From positions 1 through 63,540 of the forward strand of contig NZ_JACJPX010000049.1 in the NCBI RefSeq assembly GCF_014696315.1: a DNA stretch of 63,540 nt, read 5' to 3'. This document shows positions 22,269-31,432 of the stretch, piece by piece (the first letter of the stretch is position 1; every line of letters starts with the position of its first letter). Below the pieces are notes generated by a model. The model ran no database searches. It was not told the DNA's origin and was given only the letters and a program-made list of their open reading frames with translations. Source of the stretch: Calothrix membranacea FACHB-236 (lineage in GTDB: Bacteria; Cyanobacteriota; Cyanobacteriia; Cyanobacteriales; Nostocaceae). The translations under genes were made by a program, and so were the position numbers.

Positions 22269-23408
22269 TTACGCCATTGAGGGGGAACACAATTTATCTT
22301 CTAATTCAACTTCGCATTCTTTAGCAGTAAGAATTGCTTGGGTAATGACACGTTGAGCATCAACCCCAACTGCGTGCAATTGTAGCCACTGTTGGGCTTC
22401 ATTACCTTCGCGCAAAATTTTCTGTAAAGGAGAAAGGAAACAATTAAATCCTCGTTCTTTAGCGATCGCCCAAAGTTCTTCATACATTTGAGCGATCCAA
22501 TCTCTAGCAAGAATAGTTTTGCCATCTTGCCAGTGTGTCAGCTGAGCATCCAAACTATTTGCTGCGGCGGCTGCTTCATTGCTAGCAGTGACAGCAATTA
22601 GTTCTTCGGGGGTAAAGGTGCTTTGGGTTAACGGATCGATGTGGGTGTTTTCTATTATCTGCAACAAACGAGCTTCCAACAACGCGGTAATTGCGAGTAA
22701 AGCGATAGGATCTGTGACTAAATCGCAAATTCGCAGTTCTAAGCGATTTAAATCATAAGGACGGCGATCGCCATTAGGACGAACTGATGTCCATAAATGC
22801 CGGACATTTTGCATAGTTCCAGCAACTAGCTGTTGTTCTACCCATTCAATATGATCGGCATGACTAGCAAATAAAGGTACATGGCTAGGAGTTTGGGGGA
22901 AGAGTCCCCAACGAGTAGAGTGATAGCCAGTACCTTTGCCATCAATGAAGGGTGAGGAGGCACTGAGGGCGAGGAATAAAGGTGCTTCGGTACGAATAAC
23001 CCGACAAGCCCGCATTAATGTTTCTGGATCGCTAATGCCTACATTAATATGTACGCTAGCAGTCACTACTTTTGTACCGTAGGTTTTCTCAATGTAATCG
23101 TGATACGGATTTTTGGGATCGGAACGGAAGAAGCGATCGCTCCTACCCAAAGACAGTGTACTACCTGGAATTAAGGTATAGTCTCCAAGCTGCTGGAGGT
23201 ATTTTCGTAGTTCTTGGCGAGGACGTACTAGGGCACACAATAGCTGCTCAAAACTTTGTAAAGGTTTCGTGACATATTCAACGTTGCGGCTATCTGGCTC
23301 TCGCATAAAACTTGGCATAGCCTCAACTATTTTGTCAGAGAGACCGACGATTTCACCTTGAGGCGTGCCCGTATACATTTCAATTTCAAAGCCTTTTAAT
23401 AACCTCAC
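22269..23408 (-). CDS. gshA: Glutamate-cysteine ligase, cyanobacterial type
   Basis: This 379-residue enzyme carries out the first step of glutathione synthesis, joining glutamate and cysteine with ATP in the cytoplasm. KGFEIEMYTGTPQGEIVGLS is the conserved N terminus of the cyanobacterial GCS2-type family; TASVHINVGISDP and RPYDLNRLELRICDLVTDP are further family blocks. The start is GTG, with GAGGAG about 6 nt upstream. Length is normal. Confidence 0.92.
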   Translation of the reverse strand: MRLLKGFEIEMYTGTPQGEIVGLSDKIVEAMPSFMREPDSRNVEYVTKPLQSFEQLLCALVRPRQELRKYLQQLGDYTLIPGSTLSLGRSDRFFRSDPKNPYHDYIEKTYGTKVVTASVHINVGISDPETLMRACRVIRTEAPLFLALSASSPFIDGKGTGYHSTRWGLFPQTPSHVPLFASHADHIEWVEQQLVAGTMQNVRHLWTSVRPNGDRRPYDLNRLELRICDLVTDPIALLAITALLEARLLQIIENTHIDPLTQSTFTPEELIAVTASNEAAAAANSLDAQLTHWQDGKTILARDWIAQMYEELWAIAKERGFNCFLSPLQKILREGNEAQQWLQLHAVGVDAQRVITQAILTAKECEVELEDKLCSPSMA

Positions 23409-23866: not shown

Positions 23867-25759
23867 TTACTCCTTGACTTTTTTCCTCGTCTTCTTTTCT
23901 GTTGGTACTTTTTTTATTTTTGTTGCTGGTTCCTTTTTAGAAGGTTGCTGAGTAAAAGTATGTTGCGAGATAAAATCATCGACTGAATAATTTTCTTGAG
24001 CAATCTGAAGACGAAGCAACTCTGACCATACTTCATTATTGAGTAAATTGACAGCAGTATCACAGTTGTGTGTGGCGATCGCACTCATAAATTGACGCAA
24101 GCCCTGGTGCAATGAATCAATGAAGGGTGCTTCTGGTGCTACCTGACTCAGCAATGAAAGTGCTAAGTTCACACTTACTAAATCATCAGGTGAGTTTTGG
24201 AAATTTAACCTTGGCAAGAGAATATTTAGCCACACAGGAAGCAATTCTAGCCAGTTATTTTTTTCTATTTCTTTCAGTGCTATATTTTCCATTTTCATAG
24301 CACTCCATAAATACAAAGAATTTCTAGCTAATTGAGTGTCACGATTTTCTAAAGCTTTTAGCCATAATTGTTGAGCATGGTTATGGAAACGCTGGGTGAG
24401 AAATTCATAAGCTTCATTCACTTGCTGGGGAATTGTCACGTGATAAACGGACTCACCTAATGGTATTTGCTCACCGTTATAATTAAGCCATTGGTAGGAA
24501 CCACAAAGATAAATTTGTTTATCAACTATTACTTCTTTAATATGCGAACCTGCTAATTCTGCCAACTGTATATAAGGTAAGCCTTCAGGGATTTTAATGG
24601 CTTGGATTGTTTCTGGAATTTCAGTTTGAGGCGATATTCCATAGCCAATTATAATAGAAACTCCGCGCTTGGCTGCTTGTTCTAATACCTCTAGAATTTC
24701 TCTATTGGCAATTACCTGATTTACCCAAGGCGAATATATAATTATCTGAAATTTTGCAGCATTGATAATTTCTAAAAAAGTTTGATGAATTTGGCGATCG
24801 CTTAACTGTATGACATTACCTGAATCGCTAGATTTTTTGCGTTTTGTGCTAGGTTTGACATCATTTTCTAAGGCTTGCTGGCGAATCTTTGTAAATCGGG
24901 ATTCTATTGCCTCATTTTTATGATTAACAGTCGCTTCTAACTCAAAATTGATGGCTGTGTTTGATGATTTGCACAATTCAGATAAAGATATTTTACCTTC
25001 ATCTAGCAGTGTATCTAGCCATTTTGAACTAGAATCTAAAAGTTCCTTTCCGCGTCGCAGTTGAATAGTAATTTTATCTTTCCTGGCATCATAAATCACA
25101 AAAATTGATATTTTTCGCCAAATAATTTGCTGTGATTGTAATACCCTAAAAGCTGTGACAACTTTGCCAGCTTCAGGTACATGAAGCGCTACATCTGAAG
25201 CTTGGAGGCTCGTTTGGATTTGCTCTAAAGTTAAGGAAGATATCTCTTGATTTGGCACATTGATATTTAGAAAAGTTGCCAAATTAGGCAGATTGAGATT
25301 TATCTCATTTAATGGTTCAGTCTGAAAGGTAATATTGTCGCTCAAAGCATCTGTTATCGCATAAATTTGTACAGCATGGGGTGGTTGGGGTACAGAACCT
25401 TTTTCATAAAATAAGCGCCCTTGTTCTGTCACTGTAATTGGCGATTTGGGTGCAAGAGTTTGTAACCTTTGCAAAGTTTTAATTGTACTTTCCACAAATA
25501 TGCTATCCAACCCCAAAATAGATGCTAATTCTTTGGCTGTTGGTGGCGGTTCAAATTCTATTCCAGCGCGAATGATAAACTCTTCTAGGACATTTAACGG
25601 ACGAGGTTCGGTAATAGTTAATTCTACATTTGTTTGCTGCAAACTGTAGCGCAATTGACGAGCAACTAAAACTGATAAATGAGGATTTTGGGTTGTAATT
25701 TCTTCGACTAAATTCTTGAGGCTATCATCTATGGGTTTATTTGAGGATGTGAGAAACAT
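23867..25759 (-). CDS. Phospholipase-D-like protein, partner of the IF2_N-helicase
   Basis: The protein has 630 residues from the ATG at 25759, which is chosen because GGAGG (complement of 25768-25772) lies 8 nt upstream. This makes it overlap the helicase gene by 23 nt, so translation is likely coupled. The N-terminal third contains a possible winged helix ([13 protein letters not shown]). The central domain YSPWVNQ...[20 protein letters not shown] holds one H-x-K-x4-D motif (about 406-413), as in single-HKD nucleases that work as dimers. The C terminus is very Lys-rich ([15 protein letters not shown]), suited to nucleic acid binding. Paired with a COG1112-like helicase this matches the gene content of Mokosh-type defence (inference). 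Confidence 0.75.
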
Positions 25760-28700
25760 CAACAAAACCTCCATGATGACTAACAACATTAGCAACTTCT
25801 GAGTACATATTGCCGACTTTACCAGGTTGCTTGGTAAATAAATCGTGACAGCCTACAATTACTAGCAATTCTTGAGCGCGAGAAAAAGCGACATTTACCC
25901 GTTCTGATTTTTGCGCAAATCCTACATCTCCTTTATTATTGTTGCGAACCATGCTCACAATTACAACGGGGCGTTCCATACCCTGAAATCTATCAACTGT
26001 ACCAGTACGAATTTGCAGTGAGGGGAAAAGTTCTGTCTGAAGACGTTCATCAATTTTTCTGAGTTGAGCGCCATAAAATGTAATTACAGCAATTTCTTTT
26101 CTGGGTTCACCACAGGCGACTTTTGCAGCCCAAGTATTTTCAAATTGCTGACATAAAGCTTCAATCACATCTATTTCCTGAAGGTTAAATAAAGAAGTAC
26201 CTTCACGCTGTTCTTGAAATGCATCTTCTCTGGGCATTTTAACCCAAAGTAAATGGTGTTGAGGCTGAATTATTTCCCCAGTTAAATCATGGGCGCGTTT
26301 AATATCTGGCTGTGAAATTCCACATTCCAATTTACCCTCATAAAATTGATTGATTGCGCCCATAATATTGGGGTGCATTCGATATTGGGTAGTTAACATT
26401 TGTTTAATGCTTTGATCCGCATCTTCAAATTGGCTTTTGAAGAGAGATTCTTCTAAAAATTGCAATTCTTCTCTGCTACTGCCAATTTCTTGGACAACTT
26501 CTTCTAAAGTACTAGTATCGAGCATTGGTGGTAATTGTCGATGATCTCCCACCATGACTAATTTTTTACCCTTCAAAGCTGGGATGAGCAATTCTGGTGG
26601 CGTACATTTACTAACTTCATCAATTATCACCACATCAAAGCACTGAAATTCTTCGGAAAAATCACGATTTGCGGCTTGTACACAGGTGATACCGACGACA
26701 TTAGCATTATCTAAATATACCTGTCTTAAATCGTGGCGATCGCGTTCTGATGGGTTGCGTACTTTTTCAATCCAATCTTGAATAAAATTACTATAGCGGT
26801 TGAGGTAAAGTTCATCTTGAGTAAGTTGCTCTTGCCAAGCATCAAATTGAGCTTTAATGCTGTGTAAAAATTCTAAATGAAATAAATCAGTGGGAGAATT
26901 GGCAAGTCTAAATTTATCAGATATCCCTTGCCATTCTATCTGCCACCAGTTGCGCTCTAATAATAAAGTCTCTGATACTTCTTCTGGTTGTGTCTGTTCG
27001 GATATTTTAGCTAGTTTGACTTTTAAAGTTTCAATCTGCTGTTGAAAAATCGTTGTTTCCTCTTGCAAGATTGTTAGCTGTTCAATCAAAGAAAATTTGA
27101 TATTTTCTAATACAGCAAATGGTTCTAAGGATGTAATTAAATTTTCTAGCTGACTTAGCTGATTTATCCAAGTATGGACGTGTTTAGAAAATTCTTGCGG
27201 ATGTTCCCAAATCTTGGCTTGGGTTGTGAGATATTGGTCAACTAAAGTACGTAATTTCTGAGGAATATTTGGCTGTTGGTTGAGTTCTTGCAAAGTATTG
27301 ATTGCTCTTGCCAGTTTCACATTAGCATCTTGCCTGGCTGCTTCTGTGTTATTTTGAATATTCAATACTTGCTGCGGCGCAGTTTCATGATTGTGCAGTT
27401 CATTTAACTGTTGTTGCAGATGTTGTAGATGCTGTTCGATTTCAGTTTTGACTTTAAAAACGCATTGACGCGCATTGCTAAGGATGCTTTCTATAAGTTC
27501 TTGGGTAATTTTAGTGAGAGTTGCTTCACTATTATTGGCTTCCCATAATGCATCATAGGTTTGTTGAATTCTATTCAAGAAAATTTGGGCTGCATCAACT
27601 ATAGTTTTTCGCTGATTTTGCGTTAAATATTGATAGTTATTAATCTGTTGAGCAATTTCTTGCCATTGAGTGCGATCGCTCATTTTCAACACTAAAGGAA
27701 TCTTGCTAAAATTCTGCTGGAGAAAATAGCTAAAACTATGCTGTCTACCTTTTCTATCAGTATATTCTCCCTCAATTTCATAAGCGATCGCCTTTGCTAA
27801 TAAATCCCAATCTGGTAGATTAACTATATAATTGCTTGGCATTAATGATATTTTTAAGGAATTAGCCAGCATTACCAATTCTGGCGGTAATTGCATTAGC
27901 TCTATGGTTAAAGGTTGATTAGTCTGCCGAGCATTATTTAAAATTTCCGATAAGCGGGTATTAGCTGTAGCCTTCCATTCCTTAACAGCGGCGATAACAG
28001 ACTCGAGTTCCTGCTTGCGAGTTTCCCAATTTTGAATAGTTTGCTGTAGACTGTGCTGTTTACTAAAAAATTGCTGATTATCTTTTTGTAATTGTTGTAA
28101 ATTGCTGGAATGCTGTTTAAAAACTTGAACTGCAGCTGCAACTTCTAACATCGCTACAGTTGCACTTTGAGCATAAATTAATGCAGTTTTAAAGTCTGGG
28201 ATTCCCTTGGCGACAGTGTCACGTAACCACACAGCTAATCCAAAAGCACCACATTGAGGGCGAAGAAAGCCAAGTTTATCAGTCAAGGTGATAGCTTTAG
28301 CGACATTTACTAAAAAGTCTTTAACTAAAGTATTCCCTTCAGTATATGAGCGTAAATGTGGTAAAAAATTAGTAATTTCTGGCGCTTCCCAATTAACTAT
28401 CGATGGAGAATCTAAAAGATTTTCTAAACCAGAAATTAATGTTTCAATTTCAGTCTTTTTACCTAATGCATCTTGATAAAGTGCTGCTTGCTGTTGCAAA
28501 TTAACTGTTAATTTAGCTCTTTTTTGAGTTAATTCTTCCTGATTTACTTGGAATTCTTCTTCCGCTTGGACATAAGCTGTAAATCTTGGATATAAGGCCA
28601 ATAATTGACGATAATTTTCTAAATTTTGGCGGCGATTACTGAGACTAGTTTCGCAGTCAATAGCAGTATTATCTAACCATGTGCCAATAACTTGGTCTTC

Positions 28701-30245
28701 TAAAAAAGGCTGTCCTTCTTCACCAACTTTCTCAGCACGTCCCTTACGTATCGCCCGAATTACGGGGTTATGAACTAATCTACTCAGGGCGTTATCTACT
28801 GCTAAATTCGCTTGGGAAGCAATCAAAGTCCGCCCACCTCGTAAAGCAACTTGATAACAAATTTCAGCAATTACAGTTGTTTTACCTGTACCAGGTGGCC
28901 CTTGAATTAAAACTAAATCTTCGGCGGAAAGTACTGTTTCTACTGCTGCTTTTTGACCGGGATTAGCAGATGATAATAATAAATCTTCTACTGCTAATTC
29001 TACAGTTTTATGAATAGGTCGAGCCTGAGCAGCATCAAATAAGAAATTCCCTAAATAAGGATTTTGTGTGCGTCCATTATTTAAATCATCTAAAGCTTTT
29101 TTCTTGCGCTGAATTTGTTTAATATCGCCAACTGCTTCAAAACATAAAAATCCAGTATCAGGAAGTTGATAACGCCCGCTTGTCATGTAATCAGCAAAAT
29201 CGCGTTCCAGTCTAATGCTAATGATGCGATTTTTGATGTCAATTTCTTCTAGTGAACCTAATAACCGGCTTTGTTGCCAATTTCTCCCTGTCGGTGCTGT
29301 TTCAAATAATTTCAAATCTTCGTTTTTTGCTTTCCTTACCCGTTCCCAGAAGTTTTCCACATCCAACAGATTTTCAGGAGAACCATCAAGGGTAGCTGAG
29401 TTGACATCAATTTGAAAACTGATGCGTCTTTTAAAGTTATAGTTATGATTGCGGTAAGGTACACAAAATTGACGCGCTTGAGCAATTTTCTCTTCAATCT
29501 GCAGAAAGGCTTTCCATGCTTTTAGTTGCTCTTCTGTAGGTACAAAGTCACCACAAATAGGCGTGTTTGCTATATGTGTAAATACTGTTGAGGGAATACC
29601 GATATGATGCTCATGGTTAGGCAGAAGCCGTAAGCGCAAAGGTACAGCATAAGCATCATTATTTCCCCGCGCAATTGGGAGTAAATAAGCAGATAAAATC
29701 CTTAAACCTTCGTAGCCATTTGGGTGTACTGCAGCTTTAAATCCTAAAGTTTTGCCTAACTTTTGCAGTCTCAGAGGTAACTTACTATTTTCAGAATCAG
29801 TAGCGATAATTAATTCCCAAATTTCTTCTTTAGCTGCTCTTCCTGCACCTTTACGACGCAAATAAAAAAGACAAGGATTTTGTCCAACGCATTCCCACAT
29901 TAATTCATGGGCGTATTCTCGACGTTCGCTAAAATCGGGATATTCTGCGACTGCATCCGCGCCTGCTAAATGCCGGATTAAACTATCAATCGTCGAATTT
30001 ACGAACATATAGCCCCAATCTTCTGAGGCCATTTTCATTTTTAAGGAACTAGTTCTGCGAGTAGTAGCAACTTTAGTAACTGCTGGTTTAGCAGCTTTGC
30101 GAACACGTTCTGCTTCAAATTCGGAAATAGTGCTACTAGGACTTTTAGCGACAATATTGAGTTGTTGGCATATGACTAATAGCTTTTTGCTATCTACATT
30201 TATTTCCTTTGAAAGTTCGTAAATTCTAACTTTTGTTTTGTTCAT
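25737..30245 (-). CDS. IF2_N domain / superfamily 1 helicase with coiled-coil insertion
   Basis: This is a 1502-residue protein. Residues 4-52 ([20 protein letters not shown]...) are an IF2_N domain, otherwise known from the N terminus of translation initiation factor IF-2. An uncharacterised region follows to about 400. The helicase core then shows GPPGTGKTT (about 449-456), IIDEVSK (about 1207), [26 protein letters not shown] and RVNVAFSRA, the motifs of the Dna2/NAM7/COG1112 group. Between motifs I and II about 650 residues form a mostly coiled-coil insertion. It probably unwinds RNA or DNA with ATP. It overlaps the PLD gene by 23 nt. IF2_N could target ribosomes or tRNA (inference). Confidence 0.85.
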
Positions 30246-30501: not shown

Positions 30502-31419
30502 TTACAGTTTATATTGTCTGTACACTTCACTAGCAGCACGATGTACTAAAGAATGTCGCCAAACGAGGGATGACAAATCGTCGGCGTAACCGCCACCAAT
30601 AACACAGGCAACAGGATAACCAGCACTGACGCAAGTACTCAAAACCTGCATTTCGCGACGGAAAATCCCAGTATCGGTTAAAGCTAATTTTCCCAGGCGA
30701 TCGCCTATATGTGGATCGACACCTGCGTCATAAAAAACGATATCTGGCTTTACATCTGACAATAAATCAGGTAGATACTTTGCTAAAGTTTGCAAGTAGG
30801 CATCATCTTCCATCCCTTCAGGTAAAGGTACATCCAAATCGCTGCTTTGCTTCGTACCGGGAAAATTCACTTCACAATGCATGGAAAATGTGAACACGCT
30901 GTCATCATCTTGGAAGATAAAAGCCGTACCATCACCTTGATGCACATCTAAATCAACTATTAAGATTTTTTGAGCTAGTCCAAGTTTTTGTAAAACGCGA
31001 GATGCGATCGCTAAATCATTGAAAATACAAAAACCAGATCCATAACTGGGAAAAGCATGATGAGTCCCGCCAGCCGTATTGCAAGCTAAACCCTGACTCA
31101 GTGCTAGTTGAGCAGTCAGTATTGTACCACCAACCGCTACACAGGTACGATTCGCCAATGCCGGACTCCAGGGCAAGCCTATACGCCGTTGCGCTTTGGA
31201 ATCTAATGTTCCCTCACAATAAGCTCGAACATAGTCACCAGTATGAACCAACTCAATCAATTCTGTTGACGGAAGCACAGGCTTATGAAATTGCTCAATT
31301 TGCGCCACCCCATCATTTATTAACAATTCGTATAATTGCTGAAACTTCACCATCGGAAACCGATGTCCCTCCGGTAGCGGCGCAACGTAATCTGGATGAT
31401 AAATAATTGGTAAATGCAT
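30502..31419 (-). CDS. Histone-deacetylase-family amidohydrolase
   Basis: This zinc deacetylase of the arginase/deacetylase fold has about 305 residues from the ATG at 31419; another ATG lies two codons upstream. NTAGGTHHAFPSYGSGFCIF holds the catalytic His pair. VDLDVHQGDGT and YDAGVDPH supply the zinc-binding Asp-His-Asp. The IVGGGY-like glycine box (CVIGGGYADD) is near the C terminus. Bacterial members deacetylate polyamines or acetyl-lysine; the substrate here is not known. It stands alone. Confidence 0.88.
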   Translation of the reverse strand: MHLPIIYHPDYVAPLPEGHRFPMVKFQQLYELLINDGVAQIEQFHKPVLPSTELIELVHTGDYVRAYCEGTLDSKAQRRIGLPWSPALANRTCVAVGGTILTAQLALSQGLACNTAGGTHHAFPSYGSGFCIFNDLAIASRVLQKLGLAQKILIVDLDVHQGDGTAFIFQDDDSVFTFSMHCEVNFPGTKQSSDLDVPLPEGMEDDAYLQTLAKYLPDLLSDVKPDIVFYDAGVDPHIGDRLGKLALTDTGIFRREMQVLSTCVSAGYPVACVIGGGYADDLSSLVWRHSLVHRAASEVYRQYKL

Positions 31420-31432
31420 AATCATTTGTCAT

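Follow-up and report, generated by a model that had tools for sequence, protein, structure and literature searches.

A candidate Mokosh-like defense pair in Nostocaceae whose helicase begins with a piece of translation initiation factor IF2

A two-gene Mokosh-like locus of Calothrix membranacea FACHB-236 encodes a helicase whose N-terminal IF2_N domain is, as judged from nucleotide alignments, a copy of the 5′ end of the host's own infB gene. The locus lies in a window of 63,540 nucleotides (contig NZ_JACJPX010000049.1, positions 1 to 63,540), the whole stretch of DNA that we analyzed. A role of the pair in defense appears probable. The more specific reading, a Mokosh-like defense operon in which the front of the helicase has been refitted with a piece of host IF2, we put at a little short of an even chance, and we propose only tentatively that IF2_N docks the complex on initiation complexes.

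Results

The pair comprises two overlapping genes on the reverse strand. The MkoA-like UPF1-type SF1 helicase gene (25737..30245, minus strand) encodes 1502 amino acids. The MkoB-like partner gene (23867..25759, minus strand) encodes 630 amino acids from the ATG at 25759, or 642 from an upstream TTG at 25795. We take the ATG as the real start because many relatives begin at or near the same site in the locus comparison; partner residues upstream of it have pLDDT below 50 in the structure model. The ribosome-binding site for the partner, a GGAGG inside the helicase gene (25768..25772, minus strand), lies 8 nt upstream of this ATG, and the two genes overlap by 23 nt as measured from it. An earlier note, made from the letters alone, had described both frames, the overlap, and the internal GGAGG, and all of them stand. 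The overlapping genes are probably translationally coupled. A chance open reading frame is ruled out, as eight other genomes encode the helicase at 78-95% identity across its full length. Upstream lies a histone deacetylase (HDAC) family gene (30502..31425, minus strand) and downstream a GCS2 glutamate-cysteine ligase family gene (22269..23408, minus strand); both serve as synteny anchors and are outside the system.

Both proteins match Mokosh profiles. Against PADLOC, the helicase matches MkoA (385 bits, E 2.3e-115) and the partner matches MkoB (99.5 bits, E 7.1e-29, residues 55-442), and each also matches part of MkoC, which bears out the proposed relation to Mokosh. Pfam assigns IF2_N, AAA_11, and AAA_12 to the helicase, the last being the helicase C-terminal domain (25845..26456, minus strand, residues 1264-1467). 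UPF1-family helicases are its relatives among solved structures, both by sequence and by fold (Foldseek), and MkoA is assigned to SF1_Upf1 in the part of PMC10925250 cited here. The SF1 motifs that the note had read from the sequence are present and invariant across 11 aligned sequences (the window's and 10 relatives). Walker A, or motif I (GPPGTGKT, 28878..28901, minus strand, residues 449-456), and motif II (DEVS, 26610..26621, minus strand, residues 1209-1212) are ~750 residues apart, most of which is a long insertion.

The N-terminal domain descends from IF2. It spans 30090..30236 (minus strand, residues 4-52), and the IF2_N family of Pfam (PF04760) matches residues 5-50 with 35.1 bits versus a cut-off of 25.3, in agreement with the domain call of the note. 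Solved IF2 chains are matched by the helicase sequence, which over its first 67 residues shares 57% identity with the IF2 of the same genome. Residues 1-50 form a confident block in the structure model (pLDDT 78-93). The best Foldseek match of the whole-helicase model is IF2 (4b43, E 2.4e-5), but through a long gapped alignment with a TM score of 0.12-0.15 and an rmsd of 27.

The homology extends to the DNA. We compared the beginnings of 42 fused genes with those of 41 host infB genes and found them colinear. Nucleotide identity is about 71-89% for first-copy helicases, with most relatives at 75-89%; the window segment and its best infB partners are 78.5% identical over 158 nt. A chance domain match can be rejected, since the segment and host infB can be aligned at the nucleotide level. 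In most rows, homology starts somewhere from ~16 nt upstream to 1 nt downstream of the A of the ATG, the exceptions being L036 (13 nt inside the gene) and L049 (further upstream). It ends at about +109 to +197 in first-copy helicases. Second tandem helicases occur in some Nostoc-like genomes. Of five such copies, four have homology out to about +300 to +336, and one (L042), which is broken early, has it to near +172.

The IF2_N domain is under purifying selection. We estimated dN/dS from 18 first-copy genes (153 pairs, 148 of them unsaturated), with IF2_N taken as codons 2-52. The median is 0.25 for IF2_N, 0.69 for the linker behind it, 0.22 for the next domain, and 0.10 for the RecA2 part of the helicase. 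The infB segment might be a mere translation leader, that is, a ribosome-binding site with early codons whose role is to ensure expression or solubility, and the copied stretch of many relatives does take in up to ~16 nt before the ATG. Yet the domain is constrained over codons 2-52 much like the domain that follows, and in the window homology begins just 3 nt before the ATG; we regard the leader as quite unlikely.

First-copy IF2_N domains carry a signature of their own. Among 35 first copies, N19 is replaced by S in 32 and E21 by K in 29, while the host N and E are kept in 41 of 41; five positions are invariant over all 76 rows compared, and all of these counts were made on manually retyped alignment rows. 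The domain could be bait, an integrated decoy: a phage protein attacking host IF2 would hit the helicase copy and so trigger the system. Its origin in the host's own infB, the many residues that are still host-like, and the different front modules of different lineages would fit a decoy. However, given its signature, the first-copy domain has not kept in step with host IF2, and we know of no phage factor aimed at IF2_N in cyanophages. Bait thus seems very unlikely.

Trees of the domain disagree on its history. In the protein tree, second-copy IF2_N (C2) lies among host IF2 and forms one group at 94/91. In the DNA tree, first and second copies stand together against the host at 78/82, a node that is not starred. 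Two captures would fit the protein tree and the longer infB segment of second copies; given the disagreement of the trees, we dropped them as a settled claim. Second, divergent helicases near, or split from, the first are seen in several Nostoc-like loci (L072, L113, L114, L116, L118, L120, and L176), several of them broken. The helicase of L115 (7642-12093) keeps ~12 N-terminal residues that resemble the beginning of IF2 and are joined directly to the next domain; they look like a remnant of IF2_N.

IF2_N is one of several modules at the front of these helicases. A quick tree of 108 fetched rows (48 with IF2_N), built from the last 360 residues, places all IF2_N rows inside one clade of 80 rows and requires at least six gains or losses; the domain is absent from 32 of the 80 sampled helicases of this clade. 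In a scan of named genomes, IF2_N was found in 2 of 80 loci, both Nostoc, among the matches listed. Other helicases of the clade (L066, L068, L069, L070, L103-L106, L196, and L198) have another N-terminal module of ~230 residues that is beta-helix-like; of these, only L068 matches the NosD family, and weakly (1.3e-4).

Kinase-bearing relatives occur alongside the IF2_N form. Mokosh type I consists of an MkoA with an N-terminal Ser/Thr kinase, plus MkoB. A kinase-bearing MkoA is present in the same bacterial family (L109), and genome G039 holds both forms, which agrees with the suggestion that IF2_N stands in the place of the kinase. The kinase of L109 is recognized by Pfam (Pkinase) and that of L110 by eye only; the kinase-form helicases have 1186 and 1207 amino acids and their partners 480 and 476. 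No kinase was found in the window helicase among the best 25 of 34 Pfam families. A NERD domain, listed for Mokosh type I in the cited part of PMC10952713, was likewise absent from the helicase (best 25 of 34 Pfam families) and the partner (a single Pfam family). On the profile evidence, the pair is a two-gene variant of Mokosh and not the separate system that the note had envisaged, and, having no kinase, it falls outside the definition of Mokosh type I.

The long insertion contains a module that resembles the N-terminus of RecG (27546..27824, minus strand, residues 808-900). Residues 809-898 share 38% identity with the N-terminal end of the RecG encoded by the same genome (E 5e-13), and the NCBIfam RecG model NF008170 matches residues 809-944 (8e-13). 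In L003 (1450-3270), we observed a RecG gene whose N-terminus has this module in common with the helicase insertion. The module was not found in the kinase-bearing L109 or in second-copy helicases; the latter and L105 have a different stretch at its position. We do not claim a recent copy of host RecG, given the 38% identity and the presence of the module in divergent relatives.

Because the RecG-like module sits in the same helicase, DNA forks stay in play as a rival target. UPF1-type helicases can work on either DNA or RNA, and IF2_N together with the RecG-like module, which matches the N-terminus of cyanobacterial RecG, might direct the complex to forks formed in replication or recombination, with the PLD domain cutting phage DNA as it replicates. 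According to the cited part of PMC3334882, IF2 of E. coli participates in the transpositional replication of phage Mu, mutants that lack full-length IF2-1 resemble PriA helicase mutants, and IF2 isoforms affect PriA-dependent restart, although just truncated IF2 forms are active in the Mu reaction. The absence of the module from L109 and second-copy helicases also counts against forks, and transfer between RecG and the helicase could have run either way. We judge targeting to forks to be unlikely.

The partner combines a constant adaptor with an exchangeable effector. Its N-terminal domain, MkoB-N (24941..25759, minus strand), is followed by a PLD nuclease domain (24386..24808, minus strand, residues 330-470 of the 642-aa frame) and a lysine-rich C-terminal tail. 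The single HxKx4D motif described by the note is confirmed (24521..24544, minus strand; H418, K420, and D425), as is the basic character of the tail. The structure model of the PLD domain matches NucT and Nuc with probability 1.00; Pfam PLDc_2 reaches 23.3 bits, under its cut-off of 27. Among the nearest relatives of the window, dN/dS is 0.20 for MkoB-N and 0.24 for PLD, and both are thus constrained.

The effector end varies across relatives. In a comparison of 46 partners, HxKx4D is kept in 31, the PLD domain is absent in 13, DarT takes its place in one (L107, classed by direct comparison and Pfam; the PLD-region profile alignment had included it), and the motif is lost in one, the partner in L040, which comes from the same genus as the window and lacks H and K. 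Frame lengths in 40 cyanobacterial genomes divide the partners into 15 long, 21 short only, one of 416 amino acids (G072), one with DarT (G420), and two broken. The PLD nuclease, which the note had paired with the helicase, is not a constant part, as 21 of the 40 genomes have only a short partner, judged PLD-less from frame length. Short partners also stand behind helicases of Planococcaceae-type genomes. In L220 (6356-9835), the helicase and part of MkoB-N are apparently joined in one 1159-aa protein.

DarT is fused to MkoB-N at two loci. In L272 (15740-18764, plasmid NZ_CP040275.1), MkoB-N (profile E 8e-59) is followed by DarT (Pfam 9.2e-16), with an ADP-ribosylglycohydrolase-family gene behind it. 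A second such trio with the helicase is found in L107 (10555-13542, genome G420), where DarT matches at 2.3e-18 and the glycohydrolase gene is 76% identical. By these comparisons, the partner is modular, with PLD, DarT, or nothing behind a constant MkoB-N.

The helicase and MkoB-N share a patchy distribution. Near-full-length helicase rows occur in 128 of 217 Nostocaceae genomes; they start at residue 4 or earlier (IF2_N) in 72, at 56-75 in 40, and beyond 100 in 16, and the helicase of one of them (G213) carries stop codons. Across 386 cyanobacterial genomes, 45 have a helicase match at 1e-30, in five of which (G066, G276, G295, G378, and G404) just the C-terminal helicase part is matched. The clade helicase and MkoB-N are present in exactly the same 40 of the 386, including G155 and G212, where both genes are broken. 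Co-occurrence, a check that the note had proposed, holds for the helicase and MkoB-N but not throughout for the PLD domain. A universal housekeeping gene, which the note had named as a refuting outcome, is ruled out by presence in just 40 of 386 genomes. In L108 (G155), the helicase, MkoB, GCS2, and SpoU-type genes are all in pieces, as in a decaying genome.

The chromosomal site is conserved and often empty. We hand-picked 40 loci for diversity and, again by hand and not at random, 20 others whose genomes lack a near-full-length copy. In 30 of the 40 chosen loci, the helicase has an HDAC-family gene next to it, and in 26 a GCS2 gene lies downstream. In 13 of the 20, the HDAC gene stands directly beside the GCS2 gene, and no remnant was found in any of the 20 (tblastn, 1e-4); two of these genomes, G025 and G160, have partial helicase matches elsewhere. 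Broken copies are still in place in L064 and L065. The empty site of L138 (7179-9425, G076) has an extra short HDAC 3′ fragment just before GCS2, which may be a scar of loss. Because the flanks are conserved, sites are empty, and broken copies remain in place, we read the locus as old and vertical in Nostocaceae but dispensable.

Window neighbors are housekeeping genes, and none of the 10 scanned had a PADLOC match at 1e-5. A defense island, the context that the note had proposed to look for, is thus not supported at the window itself; plasmid relatives do have such company. In a plasmid collection, 18 records match the helicase, one over at least 80% of its length. The conjugative plasmid of Nostoc sp. 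C052 (L272) carries a helicase relative of 1246 amino acids without IF2_N in a BREX cluster, between pglX and pglZ, and the helicase, MkoB-N-DarT, and glycohydrolase genes all lie within this cluster. On the conjugative plasmid AP018308.1 of Aulosira laxa NIES-50 (L271, 366-11576), a relative with a PLD partner neighbors a DruE-like protein (2108 aa), a GajB-like protein (718 aa), and a second MkoA-like helicase (876 aa). The depositor name of the Aulosira plasmid protein, "translation initiation factor IF-2 domain-containing," was set aside, as IF2_N is absent both by Pfam and by our own profile.

These observations bear on whether the pair might instead be a cyanobacterial maintenance helicase for RNA or DNA with an accessory partner. 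A vertical locus amid housekeeping genes, the lack of defense matches among the window neighbors, and frequent loss of the nuclease would all suit such a role. Against it stand the patchy presence with empty and broken sites, the plasmid copies inside defense clusters, and the swap to DarT in the partner. We consider a function outside defense unlikely.

Discussion

Several lines of evidence point to defense: the MkoA and MkoB profiles, the shared set of 40 genomes, patchiness, the defense company of plasmid relatives, effector swaps, and constraint on both IF2_N and PLD. The housekeeping neighborhood argues the other way, as does a site kept over many genera, which is unusual for defense genes. 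The prevalence of short partners, the motif loss in L040, and the absence of IF2_N from part of its clade also count against the model.

The core of the system is likely a helicase sensor with an effector borne by MkoB, and in our view the variant would work like Mokosh. In our proposal, the helicase would inspect nucleic acid, MkoB would bind it through MkoB-N, and a phage-specific substrate would free the PLD domain to cut. We are less sure of the next steps, in which IF2_N would dock the complex on initiating ribosomes and phage transcripts would be inspected on entering translation and then destroyed. Mokosh degrades viral transcripts, as stated in the cited part of PMC11291487. Two points speak against docking on the translation machinery: IF2 from which the N-terminal third is missing remains active in translation in vitro, according to the part of PMC3334882 cited here, and the RecG-like module points to DNA. 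For the target of IF2_N, we would place initiation complexes first and forks second, with bait or leader less likely.

Other lineages have other front modules (kinase, beta-helix-like region, or none) or other effectors (DarT or none). A broader and more doubtful generalization is a defense chassis whose two ends can both be swapped. The front and the insertion of the helicase would hold pieces in common with host proteins (IF2_N and the RecG-type N-terminus), and these would serve as docking or bait modules to sense phage takeover of translation or replication. The MkoB-N adaptor would accept PLD, DarT, or no effector at all. If the pair does protect against phage, a defense helicase has changed its target through a domain acquired from a translation factor essential to the host, and a direct test of what the IF2 N-terminal domain binds becomes possible. 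The swaps at both ends are natural experiments on sensor and effector. We found no description of an IF2_N-helicase fusion or of a Mokosh-DarT link in a literature search that did not cover the original Mokosh paper.

Among known systems, Mokosh type I shares with the pair a UPF1-type helicase of the MkoA profile, an MkoB with adaptor and PLD, and the gene order. The window differs in having IF2_N and no kinase, a much longer helicase insertion with a RecG-like module, and a longer MkoB that ends in a helical region and a basic tail. Mokosh type II is a single fused protein, MkoC, parts of which are matched by the helicase and the partner, whereas the window has two separate open reading frames. 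Hachiman (HamAB) is alike by analogy only: it, too, joins a sensor helicase to a separate nuclease effector (cited parts of PMC10925250 and PMC12278908), but its helicase is of the SF2 Ski2 type (cited part of PMC10925250). DarTG resembles the relatives in L272 and L107, where the effector fused to MkoB-N is a DarT domain and an ADP-ribosylglycohydrolase-family gene follows; the window has no DarT. Bacterial IF2 itself is the source to which the N-terminal domain (PF04760) traces by sequence as a direct descendant, although only the first ~50 residues are present, on a helicase and with signature residues of their own.
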